DNA of 59,841 nucleotides, taken from assembly GCA_020432165.1 (NCBI GenBank), contig JAGQGU010000040.1, positions 1-59,841 on the forward strand, given 5' to 3'. The first letter of the stretch is position 1; each line of letters starts with the position of its first letter. This DNA comes from Thermomicrobiales bacterium. Lineage in GTDB: Bacteria > Chloroflexota > Chloroflexia > Thermomicrobiales > UBA6265. Positions 1,439-10,657 of this stretch are shown one piece after another. A program made the position numbers and the translations under genes. The notes under the pieces are model-generated. The model made no database searches, was not told where the DNA came from, and saw only the letters and a program-made list of their open reading frames with translations.

Positions 1439-2286
1439 CACGCACCTCCGGCAGGCGCCAAACTCAAGAGGCCAAATCCATACGCTTTGGCAGGACCGAT
1501 TCCATGAACCAGAGCCTCACGAAAGGCCTCGACATCCGATACGCGCAACAGTCCTTCGAAGACCATGGCCTTATGCGAGAGTTGGATATCACCGCTCTTC
1601 CAGCCCGTTTGCATATCACCCGTAATCGGATCAGGCGACACACCTGGGCGGGCGATATCGAACCCGCAGCGTTGTCCCTGCTTCTCCAGCCATTGGAAGA
1701 GAAGATCCTCCGCCGAGAACGGGTGTCGAAACTCGTCCAGATCATTACCAGCTTGCACCCACTGCCTCTTTTCGAGCGACAAATCGGTGACTGGTACGCG
1801 GGGACCATCCATCCTGGCGGGATCGGCCACCCCGCTGGACCGTTCTCGACGCGCAAGTTTATCGCTAGCTTCCTTCGGAAACGTGGATGCCCAAACATTC
1901 CACGGTATGCGCTTGGTGGGATTGGCACGCAACCGAAATCGAAAAACGTCCCCGTTCTGCAGTCGATCCGGGAGCGAGCTGATGTTCTTGACCAGCCCAT
2001 CTCCGAAGAACTCGGACTCATGCAGCAGCATCCCCTCACGCCGCAGGTATGCCCAATCTGGCTCAACGGTCGACTGCACAATGACATCGATGAGCCCCTC
2101 ACGGCTCCCCTTCACCGGATCGAGCCGGAACAACACATTGTGCTCACTCCGATCACCGACCGGGAATCCACGCATAAGCAGCGCATGCATACACTGACTG
2201 TTGCTCAAGGAACGCATCACCTCACGGCTCACCGGATTGAGACGCAGCCGGGAGAGATAGAGTTGACCCTTCTCAGTTGCAATCAT
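1438..2286 (-). CDS. cas6e: crRNA-processing endoribonuclease Cas6e
   Basis: Cas6e (CasE/Cse3) cleaves the repeat hairpin of pre-crRNA and stays bound to the 3' handle as a Cascade subunit. The 282-aa protein has the RAMP layout: an N-terminal segment with LSRLRLNP, a likely catalytic His34 in SQCMHALLMRGFP, and a C-terminal glycine-rich loop GIGPAKAYGFGLL. Its start overlaps the cas5e stop by 14 bases. If the mini-array upstream of cas3 is transcribed, this enzyme would be expected to process its degenerate hairpins as well. Confidence 0.95.
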   Translation of the reverse strand: MIATEKGQLYLSRLRLNPVSREVMRSLSNSQCMHALLMRGFPVGDRSEHNVLFRLDPVKGSREGLIDVIVQSTVEPDWAYLRREGMLLHESEFFGDGLVKNISSLPDRLQNGDVFRFRLRANPTKRIPWNVWASTFPKEASDKLARRERSSGVADPARMDGPRVPVTDLSLEKRQWVQAGNDLDEFRHPFSAEDLLFQWLEKQGQRCGFDIARPGVSPDPITGDMQTGWKSGDIQLSHKAMVFEGLLRVSDVEAFREALVHGIGPAKAYGFGLLSLAPAGGA

Positions 2287-3070
2287 CGCTTAACTCCTTC
2301 TCTGGATACCTCGTGTCGACTTCGCAAAACACCACCCCACGCGGTCCAAACTGACGGGTAGCGAAGGCTGCACCGATCGGTTGATCCATACGGGTGGCAT
2401 GAGCGTCCGATCCAGATGTCTCAGTCACTGTCCGTAGCCGCTGTTGTCGACGACCAAACAAATTGCTGATGCGGAGATGTTCCTGTTCTGGCAACCAGGT
2501 CTCTGTCCTGAAAACCTCATCAATGCATCCTTCCTTCACGCCCTTATCTCTTGGCATAGCCACCGGAATGGAGGGCACATATCCTCGTCGACCGAGCCCG
2601 ATCGGATAAACAGGCTTTCGCAATGCACAATCAAGCTCTTCCAGCAATGCGACGTCATCGCCCTGAAGCGCCACCAGAAATGCGGCATCTTGCAGATGGT
2701 AACGATTGGAGATGGATGAGCCCTGACGCTCGATCTTCTTTGTACCCTCCAATCGTGCCCATTCATCCTTGAGTGATGGCACTTTGTCTGCGGCTTTAGC
2801 GATACCAGCCGAGGTATCGCCACCACCGGCGGTCTGGAAATCAACGCACGGAACGCCTTCCAGATCAACGCGGACGCCCATCTTGAGTGCAGCAAGGTCG
2901 TCGACTGATTCATCCCGACTGCGGCCTTGTGCCGCTGCCAGAATCCCGATAACACCGCTTTTCGATGGCTCAAGCAGGGTGTCGCGTTCGGACCACCGGC
3001 TACTGATGCCCCAACTCTGCATCGGTCCGAATAGCTGCATGATCAGGCAGTGAGGATTATCGTTGCTCAT
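2273..3070 (-). CDS. cas5e: Cascade subunit Cas5e
   Basis: Cas5e (CasD) caps the 5' handle of the crRNA in the Cascade complex. The 265-aa sequence begins with the family signature LIMQLFGPMQSWGISSRW, followed by TLLEPSKSGVIGILAAA, both typical of Cas5 RAMP proteins. It overlaps cas7e upstream by 14 bases and cas6e downstream by 14 bases, inside a tightly packed operon. No frame damage is visible. Confidence 0.95.
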   Translation of the reverse strand: MSNDNPHCLIMQLFGPMQSWGISSRWSERDTLLEPSKSGVIGILAAAQGRSRDESVDDLAALKMGVRVDLEGVPCVDFQTAGGGDTSAGIAKAADKVPSLKDEWARLEGTKKIERQGSSISNRYHLQDAAFLVALQGDDVALLEELDCALRKPVYPIGLGRRGYVPSIPVAMPRDKGVKEGCIDEVFRTETWLPEQEHLRISNLFGRRQQRLRTVTETSGSDAHATRMDQPIGAAFATRQFGPRGVVFCEVDTRYPEKELSDDCN

Positions 3071-4241
3071 GGCTGGCCTCCTGCGCCGCCACTACCGCAC
3101 TAATCCACCCATCGACTGATGTTTCGGATGTGATTTGGGTTCCATGGAGCGACTTGGCATAGTCACCCAAAGCGACAGCATGTAGTGCGGTGATGCCATC
3201 AGCACCATACATATCGGTCATCTCCGTCCAGTGCTTCAGCAACTCCAGGATCGATTTTCCCAGAATATCGCCCTTCCCTTTCTCAACCGGATTCACAAAC
3301 GCATTCGCCAGCGACCACCGACCAGCATCGCGGACAACGGCAAATGCGAAGGCGGGCAAATTCTGCGCCGCAAAACTATTCTGTTTTCCGGTCGGAATCG
3401 AACACATGAACGCTCGCAGATACGCTTTCAGCGCGTTGGCGGCGAGCTCGCTATCACCCCCAAGGTTTTCCGCAAGTTGTTCCATATCGATATTGGTATA
3501 GCGATACAACGTGGACGAGTCGAAATCCACCATACCCATCATGCCGGCTCCGGTATCTTCCTTAAGGTTAAGATCATCGACTGCGGTGAAGAAATCCCAC
3601 TCAATATCGACGGCGTGTGTGGAGATGGCATGAGCTACCTGGGTGGCGCCATCTACATTCTTGTCCGGCAGGTCGGCAAGCATACGACCGAACAAGGCGA
3701 GATCCACGGCCCTGCCACCATCAAGCACCGCCAGGGTCGCCCGCTGCACATCCTCGGGAACCGTTGCCTTAAGATCCTTCTTCTTCGAACCAGCAACGGC
3801 TTTTTCCACTGCACCAGCAAGCTCGTCCCAGTTATCCAGCGCAACCTGCACCAGGCCGTCGATCTCCTGCTGTCCGAGGAAGAGAAGGTATTGCGTGCGA
3901 GGCGCATCTTCCGGGCTCTTGCTATCGGGTGCAAACCCGAGCCCACTCAATAGTGCCTTGGCAACGTTGAGAGAAAGCTCCGCATCCTTGCCGGCAGCCT
4001 TAAATCTGGCCGCAAGACCATGATCCTTGTTGAACATCAACTGCCGGGTACGCACTGCACGTTGATCTTCCGACACCAGATCGGCATTCTCAAAAGCTTC
4101 CCGCACAGCCCGCTTCCAGCTTTGGCTGGAGACGCGTGCGCGGCGATATCCGCCGAACATCGCTTCCTTTGGCTGTCCCTGATCATCGCGATTGATATTG
4201 GAGGGTGCGAGATTCTGGAGAATGTGAACTTCAACAATCAT
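3057..4241 (-). CDS. cas7e: Cascade backbone subunit Cas7e
   Basis: Cas7e (CasC/Cse4) polymerises along the crRNA to form the Cascade backbone. The 394-aa protein starts with MIVEVHILQNLAPSNINRDD, a hallmark of the family, and continues with GYRRARVSSQSWKRAVR, which is also strongly conserved. The gene overlaps cas5e downstream and is separated from cse2 by 30 bases, the largest gap between the core cas genes. Confidence 0.96.
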   Translation of the reverse strand: MIVEVHILQNLAPSNINRDDQGQPKEAMFGGYRRARVSSQSWKRAVREAFENADLVSEDQRAVRTRQLMFNKDHGLAARFKAAGKDAELSLNVAKALLSGLGFAPDSKSPEDAPRTQYLLFLGQQEIDGLVQVALDNWDELAGAVEKAVAGSKKKDLKATVPEDVQRATLAVLDGGRAVDLALFGRMLADLPDKNVDGATQVAHAISTHAVDIEWDFFTAVDDLNLKEDTGAGMMGMVDFDSSTLYRYTNIDMEQLAENLGGDSELAANALKAYLRAFMCSIPTGKQNSFAAQNLPAFAFAVVRDAGRWSLANAFVNPVEKGKGDILGKSILELLKHWTEMTDMYGADGITALHAVALGDYAKSLHGTQITSETSVDGWISAVVAAQEASHEQR

Positions 4242-4271: not shown

Positions 4272-4931
4272 CTACGCTTCAGCAACCGACAATCCATCCC
4301 CTGATGGTGCCTCTTTATCTGTGGCCATAAACCTTTGACCACCGTACCAACCGCGGGACCAACGTAGCTTCACGGTCTCGTCCCAATCCCTCAAATCTCG
4401 GGCAAGCTGGATCCAGTCAACTGGCTGCTCGCTTTTGTTCATCAATGGCATCATCACTCGTGCGAGTCGACTGTAAATCTCATCCGGCCGTGCATCGAGC
4501 AGGAAGTTGATACGGCGATCATTCGCCTTCGTCTCGTCATCGCTTCCGCGGACACCACCGTGAGCCTGGAGAAACGCATGTGTAATCGGTCGACCATAAC
4601 GAAGCCCGTCTGGCATATAGGCGGTGTGTGGATGCGTGGTATAGAGCAATGCAGCCTGATACAGGGCCCGATACTCTGGCGAACGATCATCCCAGTTGTC
4701 CGGAATGCATGGTTCAATCACCCAGGCTACGGTCGCGACTGGCGTACCTGCTCCGATACGACCACGGCGCAGTGCGGCCATTTTTCCGGTGTCAACCAGC
4801 GTACGAAGGTATCTCCGATTGGCGGAATCTTCCGGTGCCGAGTTCAGCGCCTCCCCCGACCAGTTGCGAAGGTTCAGGAAGAGACTCTGGGCCTTCTTGT
4901 GAAACTCCTCTTCTGAGACATATCGTGTCAT
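4272..4931 (-). CDS. cse2: Cascade small subunit Cse2 (Cas11e)
   Basis: Cse2 (CasB, Cas11e) is the all-helical small subunit that stabilises the displaced strand in the Cascade R-loop. The 219-aa product begins MTRYVSEEEFHKKAQ and contains the family-like NRRYLRTLVDTGKMAALRRG. I chose ATG 4931 because its ATGA overlaps the cse1 stop. A longer frame upstream would run into cse1. The C-terminal region LARDLRDWDETVKLRWSRG fits the last helices of Cse2 proteins. Confidence 0.93.
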   Translation of the reverse strand: MTRYVSEEEFHKKAQSLFLNLRNWSGEALNSAPEDSANRRYLRTLVDTGKMAALRRGRIGAGTPVATVAWVIEPCIPDNWDDRSPEYRALYQAALLYTTHPHTAYMPDGLRYGRPITHAFLQAHGGVRGSDDETKANDRRINFLLDARPDEIYSRLARVMMPLMNKSEQPVDWIQLARDLRDWDETVKLRWSRGWYGGQRFMATDKEAPSGDGLSVAEA

Positions 4932-6493
4932 ACCGTGATCTCCTCTCGTTGCTCGATCAACCCAATTTTCTTCAGTTGCGAATAGAGATAGTTCGAACCG
5001 GTGCATTGCGCCTGATACCAACGATCACCGTACATGGTGAGCGATGCATCCCGGAAACAGGATTCACAGAGCCGTCTCAGTTGATCTTTCCAGGTCGCCA
5101 AAGCCTCAGTCGAGTCCTCCAACGCGCTCAGGTTTGTGACAAACTGCTGGAACTCACGATCAATGCGACTCCAATACCGTTGCTCGATAGCGATACGAGT
5201 GAGTATTGCTGCGATATCGCCGCTATCCGCGTTGCCGCCATCGCCCGCCAAACCGATATTGGCGAACCAGCGCGCGGCTGGACGTAGCGCATCACCCCAT
5301 GCGGACTCTGCGTACCTAATTGCTTCTTTAAGAATGTAGCGACGATCTTCATCTGAAAGAATCGTCAACGGCATCGCCATCCGATCCATCCTCCAAAGGG
5401 AGATTCGGGCCTGATTATTGACCAAACCAGTCGCAATCACCTTCGGCACCAGATCGGCCAGATCATCATCTTGAATCCGGTCTTGGAGATTGCTCACAAC
5501 CAAGGGTGGTTCGTTGTCTGCGCCCGATACAGTTGCGAACTCGATGATACCGTCAACATCTCGCCATAAAGCCCTATTCTCAAAGAAGTTCCTTGGCAGC
5601 CTGGGCCCATCTTTTTTCTGAGCAAGATATCGCTTGAAAGGATCGCGTAGAGTCTCACTGACACGATCGAGTGCTAGTCCTCGATCATAATTTACCTGTG
5701 ACACTAGGCCATCGGGATTCGGTAGCAGTCGTATGCGTCGACTTCGAAAGGTATAGAGATCGGTCAACCCTTTTGCTGCACGCTCGTCGTTATTTGGCAC
5801 ATTGATCTCATCTAGCTCCCAAAACGGACAGTCGTCGTCTATTCCGAGTGCTGGAGGAGTTCCTATGCCATACAGAACCAAGTTGAGCACCATCGTTTCA
5901 TAGAGAGTCTCACCTTCAAAGCTCACTGCATAGCCAGCAATCATCGGGGAGTTCGAGAAGTTGCCTCCTGTTCCTCCTGTTCCCGCAAATCCATACTGAT
6001 GGGCTACCAGAAGTGATCTAGCAGCAGCCCCGGGCGTCAAAGCGACCCCCAAATCGTCTCGGTTATGATCAAAAAGTGTCGTGTTACTGATACTTGCAAC
6101 TTCTGGCAATAAGCGACCCGCTGGATGCCTTTTGTCGCTCACTGCAAAGTCGGTGACCTGTCCGAACGGAGCAACGGGATCGAAGAGACTAAACCGATGC
6201 TGCCAGCGATCCAGATAAGCGTCGAACGACATGGGATCAAATCCCTGCTCCCGTTGCTGCCATAGCTCATACCAGGCATCGTCGGTTGCTGGACCTTGTA
6301 TGGTGCGATGGGCGATCGCGAGGAGAAAACGCAGGATCACGGTATACGCCAGAGGCGATGGTTCGTTCAGCCCGCGGGCCTCGTGTGCACGATGGAAGAA
6401 CTCTCGTATCCCCCATTCCTCATTCGATCCATCCAGTGTTGTCACTGGTAACCAGGGATCGCGAACGAGATTGAACTCCGGAACTTCACTCAT
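4928..6493 (-). CDS. cse1: Cascade large subunit Cse1 (Cas8e)
   Basis: Cse1 (CasA, Cas8e) recognises the PAM, opens target DNA and recruits Cas3. The 521-aa protein has the typical start FNLVRDPWLPV and the LAYTVILRFLLAIAHRT helix found in Cse1 proteins. It overlaps cas3 upstream and cse2 downstream by 4 bases each (ATGA junctions). Its PAM preference cannot be read from sequence, so the proposed TAG and AAG PAMs near the cas promoter rest on analogy with the E. coli system. Confidence 0.95.
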   Translation of the reverse strand: MSEVPEFNLVRDPWLPVTTLDGSNEEWGIREFFHRAHEARGLNEPSPLAYTVILRFLLAIAHRTIQGPATDDAWYELWQQREQGFDPMSFDAYLDRWQHRFSLFDPVAPFGQVTDFAVSDKRHPAGRLLPEVASISNTTLFDHNRDDLGVALTPGAAARSLLVAHQYGFAGTGGTGGNFSNSPMIAGYAVSFEGETLYETMVLNLVLYGIGTPPALGIDDDCPFWELDEINVPNNDERAAKGLTDLYTFRSRRIRLLPNPDGLVSQVNYDRGLALDRVSETLRDPFKRYLAQKKDGPRLPRNFFENRALWRDVDGIIEFATVSGADNEPPLVVSNLQDRIQDDDLADLVPKVIATGLVNNQARISLWRMDRMAMPLTILSDEDRRYILKEAIRYAESAWGDALRPAARWFANIGLAGDGGNADSGDIAAILTRIAIEQRYWSRIDREFQQFVTNLSALEDSTEALATWKDQLRRLCESCFRDASLTMYGDRWYQAQCTGSNYLYSQLKKIGLIEQREEITV

Positions 6494-9369
6494 TCCTCAC
6501 CTCCCGCGCCACTATTGGCGCTATTGCGAACAATCATCACGCCACAGCGATCATCCAGCCGAATCACAGTCTTCCCCAATACTGCTTCTCCATCCGCATT
6601 CAGCAGAATGAGCCGTCGATAACGCAGATGGGCTGATTGATCCCAGGCTGGAGGCACCTCCATGGCGATCGCAGCTCGTACCACGTCGTAACTGCTTACC
6701 GAAACCGAATGATGCAGCAGCGTCCGCACCTGGTCGTTGGTGAATGGATTTTCGAGATCACCCTCCGGATCAAACCCAAGCGAAGTCACCTCCGCTTCCG
6801 AAAGAATCACGAGCGAAACTGTTGGGTCCCCCAATCTGGTTAGTGCCAACCTGCTTTGATGAGCTTCTGGTGCTTCTTCTGGATCTTGTTTCATTTGCGT
6901 CAATCGTACCAGAACATCCGTTCGACTTTCTAGTCGTTCCCGATCAAGATCTGGAATCAGCACCGATTCCGACGTCTTCTGATCCATACGCGTGGCTTTT
7001 AACCAGGCTGCTTCGGCCTCCATGTAGCGCGGGCCTATGCCGTCTGGAACAATCGGGTCATCGCCATACGTCGCTTCGATCAGCGCCTCGACATCATCCG
7101 GAATGACAATCTGATCGCGACCAACCAATGCCAACCAGGATCGCAGCAATACATAATCGCCATAGACAATCTTCGAGCCATCAAAGAACTCAGGTCCGTC
7201 CCCTGCGTCGATATTGTCAATGCCGATCAACCACAGTCGCGGCTTGTGGAATGCAGCGGGACGTTGGTCATCCCATCGACGATGTCGCTGCAAGCGGCCG
7301 GCTCGTTGAAGCAACAAGTCAGTGGGCGCAAACATCGAGACCATAAGGTCAAAGTCCAGATCGAGGCTTTGCTCGATCACCTGCGTTGCCACCACGATAT
7401 GTCGCCACGGACGGTTTGGTTTGCCATCTTCCCCTGCATCCTTGCCAAACAGATCAAGCACGCGATTCTGGATCGCCGCTCGTTCTTTCTGCCGAAATCG
7501 GGCGTGGAACAGGGTTAGCTCATCCTCAGCAAAGGATTTTTGGAGGTGCGTGAAGCATTCCTGGGCACTGGCAACGGTGTTACAGATGATGGCCACGTTG
7601 CCACCATCCTGCAACTCATCTTCAAGTCGAATGGCGAGATCATCCCACATCGACTCGGGTGCGGATGGATACCACTCCAACTGCAGTGTGGTCGGTTCAT
7701 CATCGGCACTGCGTTCGACGTCGATCGACTGCATACGAGTGTCGTCAATAGCCGAAATTCGAGGATACGGTGCTAGTTCACCGGACGGCGCGTTCCATTT
7801 CGCTCCCCTGGCATAGGCTGCGAGCATCTCTTTCGTGCGATGTCGGGGAAGAGTCGCCGAAAGGATCACTACTGGCGAGCCCATGGCACCAAGGAACTCC
7901 AGTAGTCGATCAAAGAGCGAGCTCATGTAGACGTCGTACGAATGTACTTCATCGAAGATCACTGTTTTGCCACTGAGGCCAAACATCCGGACGAAGAGAT
8001 GGGGTGTCAGGAGTACGCTCATCAAGGCTTGATCGACTGTGCCGACGCCATACCGCGCCAGTAGACCATGCTTTTTACGCGTGAACCAGCGGGCGCGACG
8101 GACAACATTGTGGGCATCCACAACCTTATCTTTTGGATCGGCATCCGGATCCGTCAGTGCATCAATGCGTTCGGCCATCGCCTGGAGCGAATCTTCGGCA
8201 TCTCTCTGCTCCATCTCGTCCATGGCGCTGAATTCCGCCATACCGTGAAGGAGGTGCAGTGGCACAATCCGCGTCCGGCTGCCCTTATCAGCATGTGCTT
8301 TCAGATGCGCCCGTACCCGTTGGTATAGCTGATCCGATGTCGCCATGGTGGGAAGCGCGAAGTAGGTACCAGTGATATCGGCTGTTTCGGCGTAATAGGC
8401 GGCAATCCAGAGCGCGATCTCGGTCTTGCCCCATCCCATCGGGATCTCGACCACGGTCATCCCTGGTCTCGACATGGAGCGGGTGAGATCGACCGCCTGG
8501 CTCTGCGACCGTCGTGGCACAAAATCAGGAATGGTCAAAATCGTGCTTGCCAAATCTTCACTGGCAATAGTCAACGGAGGACTCGCCCAGCCGGTGAAGG
8601 TCAACGCCTTCTCGGCCGATTTTTGCGCGGTCACCAATGCCGCCGCATATGACTCGGCTGGTTCGAATCGAAACTCAAAATAGTGCTCATCGGAACCAAT
8701 CCAGTCGGCAACGGAGATGAGTCCGGCCAGCCAGAGCGAGTCCTCATATGTTGGAAAGTTAGAGTCACTGATAAGGTCGGCGTTGAGCTTTCCGACCATG
8801 GCATCGTCTATCGCGAACGCCTCTCGCAAGTGTCGGAAGATGTCGCGATGGAGCTCAGCCCAGGCCTTCTGACCAGTCCTCTTGACAGTATCCGGCCCCT
8901 TGAGCGCATCATACTCGCCACTCGTCCAAAACCGACCATGATGTGCAGCCGTGATCTCGGCGTAGCGCTTACTGATACGCGTTGTCCAGCCAAACTCCTG
9001 CTGGAAAAGCGGTACCAGCAGTCCCCAGGAGATAAGGCTGTGGCGCAATGCGGTCTTGTTGGCGTCGATGGGAAACTCCGCACCATAGAGCGATGACAGG
9101 CGTTTAGCCTGTTCCGGAGCCATGTTCTGGAATCGAGGACTCGCCTTACCAAGATCATGGAGCGACGCCAGGAAGCCGACGAATCGACCGGCTTCCTCTT
9201 CATTCAATCCAAGACGAATGCAGATGCGATCTTTACTCTGTTGTGGAAGGGCTTTCTGCCAAAGGAGTCCAGACACCGCCCCGACCTCAAGGAGGTGCCA
9301 AGGCAGAGCATGCCAATCGCTTGGATCCGCCTTTGAGGTCTTCGCCCAGAGCTGCCAGCTATCGATCAT
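6490..9369 (-). CDS. cas3: CRISPR helicase-nuclease Cas3
   Basis: Cas3 is the HD nuclease and superfamily 2 helicase that degrades DNA bound by Cascade. The 959-aa protein has an N-terminal HD domain with SLHDLGKASPRFQ (His71-Asp72), a Walker A motif PMGWGKTEIAL, a DEVH box in VIFDEVHSYD, and a helicase C region with QVIEQSLDLDFD. Its start codon lies inside the end of a 72-aa upstream ORF (11-base overlap), so translation is probably coupled. All motifs look intact. Confidence 0.97.
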   Translation of the reverse strand: MIDSWQLWAKTSKADPSDWHALPWHLLEVGAVSGLLWQKALPQQSKDRICIRLGLNEEEAGRFVGFLASLHDLGKASPRFQNMAPEQAKRLSSLYGAEFPIDANKTALRHSLISWGLLVPLFQQEFGWTTRISKRYAEITAAHHGRFWTSGEYDALKGPDTVKRTGQKAWAELHRDIFRHLREAFAIDDAMVGKLNADLISDSNFPTYEDSLWLAGLISVADWIGSDEHYFEFRFEPAESYAAALVTAQKSAEKALTFTGWASPPLTIASEDLASTILTIPDFVPRRSQSQAVDLTRSMSRPGMTVVEIPMGWGKTEIALWIAAYYAETADITGTYFALPTMATSDQLYQRVRAHLKAHADKGSRTRIVPLHLLHGMAEFSAMDEMEQRDAEDSLQAMAERIDALTDPDADPKDKVVDAHNVVRRARWFTRKKHGLLARYGVGTVDQALMSVLLTPHLFVRMFGLSGKTVIFDEVHSYDVYMSSLFDRLLEFLGAMGSPVVILSATLPRHRTKEMLAAYARGAKWNAPSGELAPYPRISAIDDTRMQSIDVERSADDEPTTLQLEWYPSAPESMWDDLAIRLEDELQDGGNVAIICNTVASAQECFTHLQKSFAEDELTLFHARFRQKERAAIQNRVLDLFGKDAGEDGKPNRPWRHIVVATQVIEQSLDLDFDLMVSMFAPTDLLLQRAGRLQRHRRWDDQRPAAFHKPRLWLIGIDNIDAGDGPEFFDGSKIVYGDYVLLRSWLALVGRDQIVIPDDVEALIEATYGDDPIVPDGIGPRYMEAEAAWLKATRMDQKTSESVLIPDLDRERLESRTDVLVRLTQMKQDPEEAPEAHQSRLALTRLGDPTVSLVILSEAEVTSLGFDPEGDLENPFTNDQVRTLLHHSVSVSSYDVVRAAIAMEVPPAWDQSAHLRYRRLILLNADGEAVLGKTVIRLDDRCGVMIVRNSANSGAGGEE

Positions 9370-9577
9370 CGCTCACCTCCGTCCGATTATCCCCCTTATG
9401 TCCATTATCGGACGCAGCAGGGGCAGGCGCATCGGTTGCCGGAGGTGATTGTGGCGGCGCGAAACCGATTGGAGGTTTTGGAATGGATCGCTCGGTAACG
9501 AGCTCCCCGATTCCGACTTGACCACCACCGACAATGCAGATAGATCCGAACTGGACGTGATATTGATACTTAGGCAT
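9359..9577 (-). CDS. Small 72-aa protein coupled to cas3, unknown function
   Basis: I do not recognise this protein. It starts at ATG 9577, five bases after a perfect Shine-Dalgarno AAGGAGG, and its stop codon lies 11 bases inside cas3, so ribosomes finishing it could re-initiate on cas3. The first half (MPKYQYHVQFGSICIVGGGQ onwards) looks like beta strands with a glycine turn. The second half is rich in Pro, Ala and Asp and probably disordered. It is the first gene of the cas operon and lies downstream of the promoter at 9747-9775. It could be a Cas3 accessory factor, a leader peptide for coupling, or a regulator; the sequence does not decide. Confidence 0.72.
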   Translation of the reverse strand: MPKYQYHVQFGSICIVGGGQVGIGELVTERSIPKPPIGFAPPQSPPATDAPAPAASDNGHKGDNRTEVSDDR

Positions 9578-9610: not shown

Positions 9611-9740
9611 CCGCGATGCGATATAATGGTTTTCGGTTCCAACGAGCCAAATGATCGCGTTCGCGCGATTCCCGCCGGGCGAGACGAATGGTAGTCGTCT
9701 CGCCCGGATTATGGGTTCTAACCAGCCACGCACGGCTGGT
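9611..9740 (-). promoter_or_regulatory. Structured 5' leader of the cas operon
   Basis: Between the predicted transcription start (about 9740) and the small ORF lies a 163-nt leader with three strong hairpins in the minus-strand RNA. These are ACCAGCC/GGCTGGT at 9721-9740, right at the 5' end; a perfect 13-bp stem at 9675-9687 with 9695-9707; and an ATCGCG/CGCGAT stem with a CGAA loop near 9655-9670. No long U-run follows the 13-bp stem, so it is not a standard intrinsic terminator. It may stabilise the mRNA or attenuate transcription. Confidence 0.55.
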
Positions 9741-9746
9741 CTGTTC

Positions 9747-9775
9747 AGTATATCGGCTGCAATTTGGATATGCAA
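9747..9775 (-). promoter_or_regulatory. Predicted sigma70-type promoter of the cas operon
   Basis: On the minus strand, TTGCAT (9775-9770) and TATACT (9752-9747) are separated by exactly 17 bases, a good housekeeping -35/-10 pair. Initiation would fall near 9740, giving a 163-nt leader before the small ORF and cas3. The -35 box is only 5 bases from the inverted repeat at 9781-9838. It would lie inside the 32-nt R-loop footprint (9773-9804) of a Cascade guided by the mini-array. Confidence 0.65.
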
Positions 9776-9780
9776 ATTGG

Positions 9781-9838
9781 TAACGAAATCCAACCTCATC
9801 AACTCTATGATGTAAGAGTTGTTGTGGTTGGATTTCGT
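9781..9838. promoter_or_regulatory. Inverted repeat: predicted self-target of the mini-CRISPR guide
   Basis: Two arms of about 23 bases (9783-9805 and 9816-9838) are inverted copies of one another with two differences. The spacer of the mini-array at 9895-9926 matches the left arm (minus strand) at positions 1-16 and 19-24. It matches the right arm (plus strand) at positions 1-5, 7-8, 10-16 and 19-22. The three bases 5' of the two protospacers are TAG and AAG, both accepted as PAMs by E. coli type I-E Cascade. The last 8 spacer positions do not match the left arm. The element could instead be an operator for a protein regulator. Confidence 0.75.
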
Positions 9839-9856
9839 CTATCTGCGTCATCTAGA
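9828..9856 (+). promoter_or_regulatory. Possible promoter of the mini-CRISPR
   Basis: TTGGAT (9828-9833) and TCTAGA (9851-9856) are spaced by 17 bases on the plus strand, and the start would fall a few bases before the first degenerate repeat at 9866. The -35 lies inside the right arm of the inverted repeat, so guide-directed Cascade binding there would also shut off the guide's own synthesis. The -10 is weak. Confidence 0.4.
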
Positions 9857-9865
9857 CTAGTTGGT

Positions 9866-9955
9866 GGAACTCCTCACGCATTGGGGATGAACCAAGTTGA
9901 TGAGGTTGGACCTCGTTAAGGGAGACTTGGTGTCCACGCAAGTGGATATGAAAGG
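9866..9955 (+). CRISPR. Degenerate mini-CRISPR (ψR1-spacer-ψR2), CreR-like guide RNA
   Basis: Two diverged type I-E repeats lie exactly 61 bp apart, the native I-E period. ψR1 (9866-9894) ends in GGGGATGAACCA, giving the 8-nt handle ATGAACCA (E. coli: ATAAACCG), and its stem is CCTCA/TGGGG. ψR2 (9927-9955) has a changed but still paired stem, TCCAC/GTGGA, and a GATATGAAAGG-like end in place of GGGGATGAACC. The single 32-nt spacer (9895-9926) partly matches both arms of the inverted repeat beside the cas promoter. Degenerate repeats, one spacer, a target in the cas promoter and partial complementarity are the defining traits of known Cas-regulating RNAs. I infer that Cascade loaded with this RNA represses the cas operon without triggering Cas3. 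Confidence 0.82.
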
Positions 9956-9957
9956 AG

Positions 9958-9992
9958 TGAGTCGTAGGCAGTGCTTACGACTCATCTTTGTT
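9958..9992 (+). terminator. Terminator of the mini-CRISPR transcript
   Basis: A 9-bp perfect stem TGAGTCGTA/TACGACTCA (9958-9966 with 9976-9984) is followed by TCTTTGTT. It begins three bases after ψR2, so it would end a short RNA of about 120 nt made from the mini-array. Confidence 0.6.
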
Positions 9993-10174
9993 CACAGAAT
10001 CGACAACGGCCTGTGATACTCTCTGGCTACTAGTAGGCATTCAAGATCGGATTCTCACGCGAATCTGTGTACTAATGAGAGGCATCGGTAACGTCGCTGG
10101 TTCCCTGAGCAAGTAGCTTGTCTGTGCTGGGTTAGGTGGTGATTCGAGATTGGATCGCATACAAGGGAGTAGGC

Positions 10175-10657
10175 ATGAGCGATACTGCAAAACTGGACTT
10201 CGCCTTTGTCGTCGATGAGGATAAGCGGTTCAATAGCGTTGTCGAACTCGCCGCAACGATACTGAATCAGGATCGATACATTCTGATGGAATTTCCAGAG
10301 GTTCGAGAGTCACATGTTATCGGCGCATTTTGCGATGATCAGGCTATTGGATTTCTCCGATTTCTCGTTCAGGACCTTGGCAAAGCCGAAGGTCGTCCAC
10401 CGGTATTGCGTTCGGGCAAGCCGATCACAGAGGCGTATATCGAAGCCTTTGGCGTGCATCCTGACTGGAGGCGACAAGGGATCGGATCATCACTCCAGCT
10501 TGTAGCCATTGACTATGCACTGCGTTGTGATTGCTATCAGGTAAGATCGCGAAGTCCCGTGACCTCCGAGGAGAATTACTCTCTGAAAATCGCCGCGGGG
10601 TATGCAATCCAGCCGAGCGAGCAGAACGATTCCTATTACTTCATCAAGAAACTATAG
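10175..10657 (+). CDS. GNAT family N-acetyltransferase
   Basis: This 160-aa protein has the acetyl-CoA binding signature VHPDWRRQGIGSSLQ (the R/Q-x-x-G-x-G loop) followed by a helix, the core of the GNAT fold. The early segment FCDDQAIGFLRFLVQ fits strands beta2-beta3. The substrate is unknown. I chose ATG 10175 because AAGGGAG sits 5 bases upstream; an in-frame start 39 bases earlier lacks a ribosome site. It lies 180 bases after the mini-CRISPR terminator and has its own terminator, so it is probably a separate unit. GNAT proteins can be toxins, but no target of the mini-CRISPR spacer is seen in front of it. Confidence 0.85.
   Translation: MSDTAKLDFAFVVDEDKRFNSVVELAATILNQDRYILMEFPEVRESHVIGAFCDDQAIGFLRFLVQDLGKAEGRPPVLRSGKPITEAYIEAFGVHPDWRRQGIGSSLQLVAIDYALRCDCYQVRSRSPVTSEENYSLKIAAGYAIQPSEQNDSYYFIKKL

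Follow-up and report, generated by a model that had tools for sequence, protein, structure and literature searches.

What does a mini-CRISPR of two degenerate repeats do when it lies beside an intact type I-E cas operon and its spacer matches DNA at the promoter of that operon? The question is raised by a locus of a Thermomicrobiales bacterium, contained in a stretch of 59,841 nucleotides (the window) that makes up contig C29 in a draft genome of 3.2 Mb, which groups with Chloroflexota. From the analysis of its sequence, we regard the element as very probably a creR gene, i.e., a gene of CRISPR origin for a guide RNA by which the neighboring type I-E operon represses itself.

Anatomy of the mini-CRISPR

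The element occupies positions 9866–9955 of the plus strand and consists of two degenerate type I-E repeats, whose starts are exactly 61 bp apart, with a 32-nt spacer between them. The first repeat, ψR1 (9866–9894, or 9864–9894 with GTGG and a 3-nt insertion included), ends in ATGAACCA, which would give the 5′ handle of a guide RNA; array repeats of the same genome end in ATGAACCG. In a gapped alignment, ψR1 reads GTGG[AAC]TCCTCACGCAT-TGGGGATGAACCA against the majority array repeat GTGGTCCCCACGCATGTGAGGATGAACCG, retaining the handle and a 6-bp stem. The spacer, AGTTGATGAGGTTGGACCTCGTTAAGGGAGAC, spans 9895–9926 and is followed by ψR2 (9927–9955), whose stem-loop TCCAC-GCAA-GTGGA (hairpin z −5.4) would give the 3′ hairpin. 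ψR2 is identical to the genome's own repeat at 20 of 29 positions, the top ungapped match in the whole window (the runner-up reaches 18/29). Immediately downstream lies a terminator-like hairpin with an imperfect T tail (9957–9985). The earlier note on this DNA had described the two diverged repeats at this spacing, the intact handle of ψR1, the TCCAC/GTGGA stem of ψR2, and a terminator hairpin directly after it, all of which we recovered. Upstream, a weak creR promoter is predicted by consensus match only at 9829–9858(+), with TGGATT (9829–9834) and TAGACT (9853–9858) separated by 18 bp and a start near 9865. Just past the terminator is a GNAT acetyltransferase gene (10136–10657, +), and no creR target was found at its promoter.

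The ψ repeats belong to the same repeat family as the genome's own I-E array on contig C8 (L011), which has about 148 repeats with a 61-bp period in two variants, 117 copies of GTGGTCCCCACGCATGTGAGGATGAACCG and 30 copies of GTGGTCCCCACGCCCGTGGGGATGAACCG.

The cas operon and the two target sites

The type I-E operon is intact and runs on the minus strand, opposite to creR, in the order cas3 (6490–9369), cas8e (cse1; 4928–6493), cas11e (cse2; 4272–5021, true start probably further downstream), cas7e (cse4; 3057–4241), cas5e (2273–3070), cas6e, the predicted processing nuclease (1438–2286), cas1e (413–1441), and cas2e (45–419). Its promoter is predicted, again by consensus match only, at 9747–9775(−), where TTGCAT (9775–9770) and TATACT (9752–9747) flank a 17-bp gap and would set the start near 9740.

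The spacer matches two sites, both located between creR and cas. Site A (9773–9804, −) is identical to the spacer at 22 of 32 positions, namely 1–16, an exact 16-nt seed match, and 19–24; it carries the PAM TAG at 9805–9807 and at its far end extends into the −35 box predicted for the cas promoter. The earlier note was thus right to place a spacer match beside the cas promoter, and it overlooked a second, inverted one. This site B (9817–9848, +), on the creR side, matches at 19/32 with mismatches at positions 6 and 9 within the first 16, and at 17 and 18 as well within the first 18; its PAM is AAG (9814–9816), and it overlaps the weak predicted −35 box of creR. Either site may be the main target: site A pairs better but has an exceptional PAM, TAG, where eight of eight related elements (described below) have AAG, while site B has the usual AAG and a seed-region mismatch at position 9. 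Across the 3.2-Mb genome, the combined site pattern was found only at sites A and B, at the spacer itself, and at one further place with two mismatches, a number of matches not above that of a reversed-pattern control.

Sites A and B are inverted copies of each other, with PAMs 6 bp apart, and form head to head a 56-bp dyad (9783–9838; self-match E 9e-9, fold z −8.7). A long inverted repeat that folds this strongly between divergent predicted promoters could also serve a regulatory protein as operator, or be a structural hairpin, its resemblance to the spacer being incidental. We consider this unlikely, because the symmetry spans from the AG of both PAMs to protospacer position 22, as expected of a duplicated Cascade target, and arms of 22 nt would be long for an operator bound by a protein.

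Spacer origin and chance tests

The earlier note had also stated that the spacer matches the cas-promoter region instead of a mobile element, and a search of IMG/VR bears this out: the first 20 nt of the spacer have no exact match there, and we rejected a mobile-element origin on this ground. Two viral contigs (L150 and L151) did match a less stringent site pattern, at about the rate expected by chance. Both contain one identical sequence, a 23-nt stretch with one mismatch to site A and the PAM ACA, which is not AAG-like; this, too, is compatible with chance.

In a canonical immune mini-array, the repeats are intact and the spacer derives from a mobile element; here, the repeats have diverged and the spacer matches the promoter of the genome's own cas genes. 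The element might instead be dead, a two-repeat CRISPR remnant whose spacer was acquired from the chromosome by mistake and is now inert, as the diverged repeats and the unmatched PAM-distal part of the guide would allow. Such a remnant, or an immune mini-array, is scarcely probable given that the handle, both stems, and the 16-nt seed were retained while other parts decayed, that the spacer lacks an exact virus match over its first 20 nt, and that the same geometry is kept with different sequences in the eight relatives.

The chance occurrence of such a locus was assessed with a composite score of four parts: the ψ-repeat stem, the handle, a second stem 61 bp further on, and a seed match with a PAM within 800 bp. 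The creR locus scored 28.5, compared to 23.75 for the highest-scoring 1.6-kb segment elsewhere in the window and 22.75 for the top of 74 control segments taken from within cas3 genes. Dinucleotide shuffles (n = 60) gave nothing in 59 cases and 19.75 in one.

Relatives at other type I-E operons

The same scoring scan, run on the DNA upstream of other type I-E cas3 genes, found eight independent elements with scores of 25.2–30. They are L023, L024 (= L074, a Herpetosiphonaceae MAG), L028 (= L097, Thermomicrobiales), L035, L043 (= L124), L044, L120 (Ktedonobacterales), and L141 (Thermaceae), so that all hosts belong to Chloroflexota except for one Thermaceae. Most of the scanned I-E loci have no such element, which is recurrent, not universal. 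The spacers of the relatives are mutually unrelated, and each matches the DNA upstream of its own operon with the PAM AAG (8/8). Thus, the comparison across related genomes that the earlier note had suggested shows spacer and target covarying in a conserved ψR/spacer geometry. No DNA homologue of the window element was found in 158 genomes of the class (one 26-bp match, E 0.009, was disregarded), and Rfam returned only microRNA-like hairpin matches on the dyad, below threshold and judged meaningless. A scan by geometry plus target can find CreR units that have no close relatives.

A recognizable promoter lies at the target site in five of the eight. In L023, L028, and L035, the target or its PAM is at or just past the start predicted for a well-defined promoter, TTGACA-17-TAxxxT, and the targets of L120 and L141 touch a −35 or −10 box; at those of L024, L043, and L044, we recognized no promoter of similar quality. 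In L043 and L044, creR is downstream of the target and points in the same direction as cas; these two may lie within the cas leader and share the promoter that creR represses.

The mismatches of the relatives are distributed unevenly along the guide. Positions 6 and 12 do not pair in Cascade. Each of them is mismatched in seven of the eight relatives, about the frequency of an unconstrained base, and positions 1–5 and 7–11 are mismatched in only 4 of 80 cells, a low rate that is partly ascertainment, as the scan rewards matches at positions other than 6 and 12. The pattern agrees in direction with a mutational test of H. hubeiense CreA, in which nucleotides 1–5 and 7–11 were essential and 6 and 12 dispensable (PMC8501985). 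As positions 6 and 12 are apparently unconstrained across the nine loci now available for comparison, CreR targets should be predictable from sequence alone.

Two long target matches occur in the window only. L044 has a second seed match of 9 nt on the cas side of its creR (1378–1409, cas orientation; PAM ATG), and it is the only relative with even a short second match; we therefore rejected a second target site as a general trait.

Relation to known guide RNAs

The closest known counterparts are CreR RNAs, described in the papers that cite or review the original work as RNAs that regulate cas genes in systems of types I-B, I-E, and V-A (Liu et al. 2023 Cell Host Microbe 31:1481, cited in PMC13131331; reviewed in PMC12737573). 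In the same accounts, their repression is lifted by crRNA competition or by loss of Cascade to anti-CRISPRs (PMC12737573, PMC13131331). Like CreR, the window element is a mini-CRISPR adjoining cas genes, with limited complementarity between the spacer and a cas promoter, in a type I-E setting with no evident toxin gene. It combines a degenerate ψR-spacer-ψR unit beside cas, a spacer of partial complementarity whose seed, next to a PAM, matches at the predicted cas promoter, and covariation in eight relatives, three of them with no recognized promoter. Every CreR feature that can be examined at the sequence level is present, and on this basis the element is filed as CreR. Unlike CreR as presented in the citing papers, it resides in a Chloroflexota (Thermomicrobiales) host and has two head-to-head target sites. 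The double mirrored target, with its putative function, is the sole unusual part. The earlier suggestion of a possibly undescribed member appears fair for this particular element; it does not extend to the family, as CreR including type I-E is already described. RNA-guided cas autorepression would be extended to the type I-E systems of Chloroflexota.

Similarities extend to CreA of the CreTA modules (PMC8501985, PMC9458426, PMC10097628), which shares the two degenerate repeats, the 8-nt 5′ handle, and a seed of positions 1–5 and 7–11 with 6 and 12 free. The difference is that the genes controlled here would be the cas genes and that no toxin was found. CreA of H. hubeiense, a haloarchaeon, also represses the promoter of its own creTA operon (PMC8501985), a precedent for a guide that represses its own promoter. 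Solitary repeat units and RNA anti-CRISPRs (Racr; PMC10651486) are likewise repeat mimics outside arrays; Racr, however, are viral and inhibit host Cas proteins, whereas the window element comprises two repeats with a complete guide, and its target is chromosomal.

The likeness to CreA suggests an alternative of the CreTA/CrePA type, in which the element would act as an antitoxin guide. What it represses would then be a toxin, either an RNA or a small protein, with its gene in the cas leader or in the first ORF of the predicted cas transcript, and the cell would depend on Cascade. The anatomy is indeed identical to that of creA, and the leader has strong hairpins. The first ORF, between the cas promoter and cas3 (9359–9577, −), is an orphan: it encodes 72 residues rich in proline and alanine behind a strong ribosome-binding site (AGGAGG), and has no Pfam match, no PADLOC match, and no convincing relative at class level. 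We nevertheless hold this alternative to be highly unlikely. From the predicted start to the 72-aa ORF, the sequence contains no ATG, a toxin ORF that overlaps cas3 would be co-expressed with the operon, and cas3 follows directly on the target promoter in some relatives, e.g., L023 and L035.

A model for autorepression of the cas operon

The complete crRNA-like anatomy, the promoter seed match with its PAM, and the eight covarying relatives together make the CreR-type reading well supported; the intact Cascade and Cas6e genes complete the case for the autorepressor guide that the earlier note had postulated. In this model, the creR RNA would start near 9865 and end at the 9957–9985 hairpin. 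Cas6e would cut it into a 61-nt crRNA-like RNA made up of the 8-nt handle, the 32-nt spacer, and the ψR2 hairpin, which would then be loaded on Cascade. The seed would pair with site A over the cas −35 box, and possibly also with its mirror copy, site B. Cascade bound at the cas promoter would block RNA polymerase and not trigger Cas3 cleavage. Binding of this kind is expected because the PAM-distal quarter of the guide is mismatched: in type I-E systems, where the R-loop has to lock, a mismatched PAM-distal end should allow binding without cleavage by Cas3. Spare Cascade would in this way shut off its own cas genes, and repression would end when crRNAs are abundant or anti-CRISPRs are present.

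The mirrored sites allow a further, tentative proposal, which we think possible though doubtful, that one guide serves two operators: at site A it would block the cas promoter and at site B its own, making creR self-limiting. With PAMs only 6 bp apart, two Cascades probably cannot bind at once, and the pair would then act as an either/or switch between the divergent promoters. We found no duplicated inverted Cascade operator between divergent promoters in the literature examined. If functional, the mirrored sites would amount to a natural Cascade operator of compact form, tuning effector and guide alike.

Folding of the guide and of the cas leader

Self-pairing of the creR spacer is possible (10 bp, z −3.25) and might hamper its loading, though array spacers reach similar energies. 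Hairpins of 10–11 bp are possible in the guides of the window (9895–9926) and L024, with p = 0.002 for each against shuffles. Self-folding was rejected as a conserved CreR trait, as it is strong only in these two, weak or absent in five other loci, and similar in energy in array spacers.

The predicted cas mRNA leader forms strong hairpins at 9640–9750(−), among them a stem of 13 bp (CCGGGCGAGACGA/TCGTCTCGCCCGG; fold z −4.9) without a T tail, and these are possibly a second layer of cas control.
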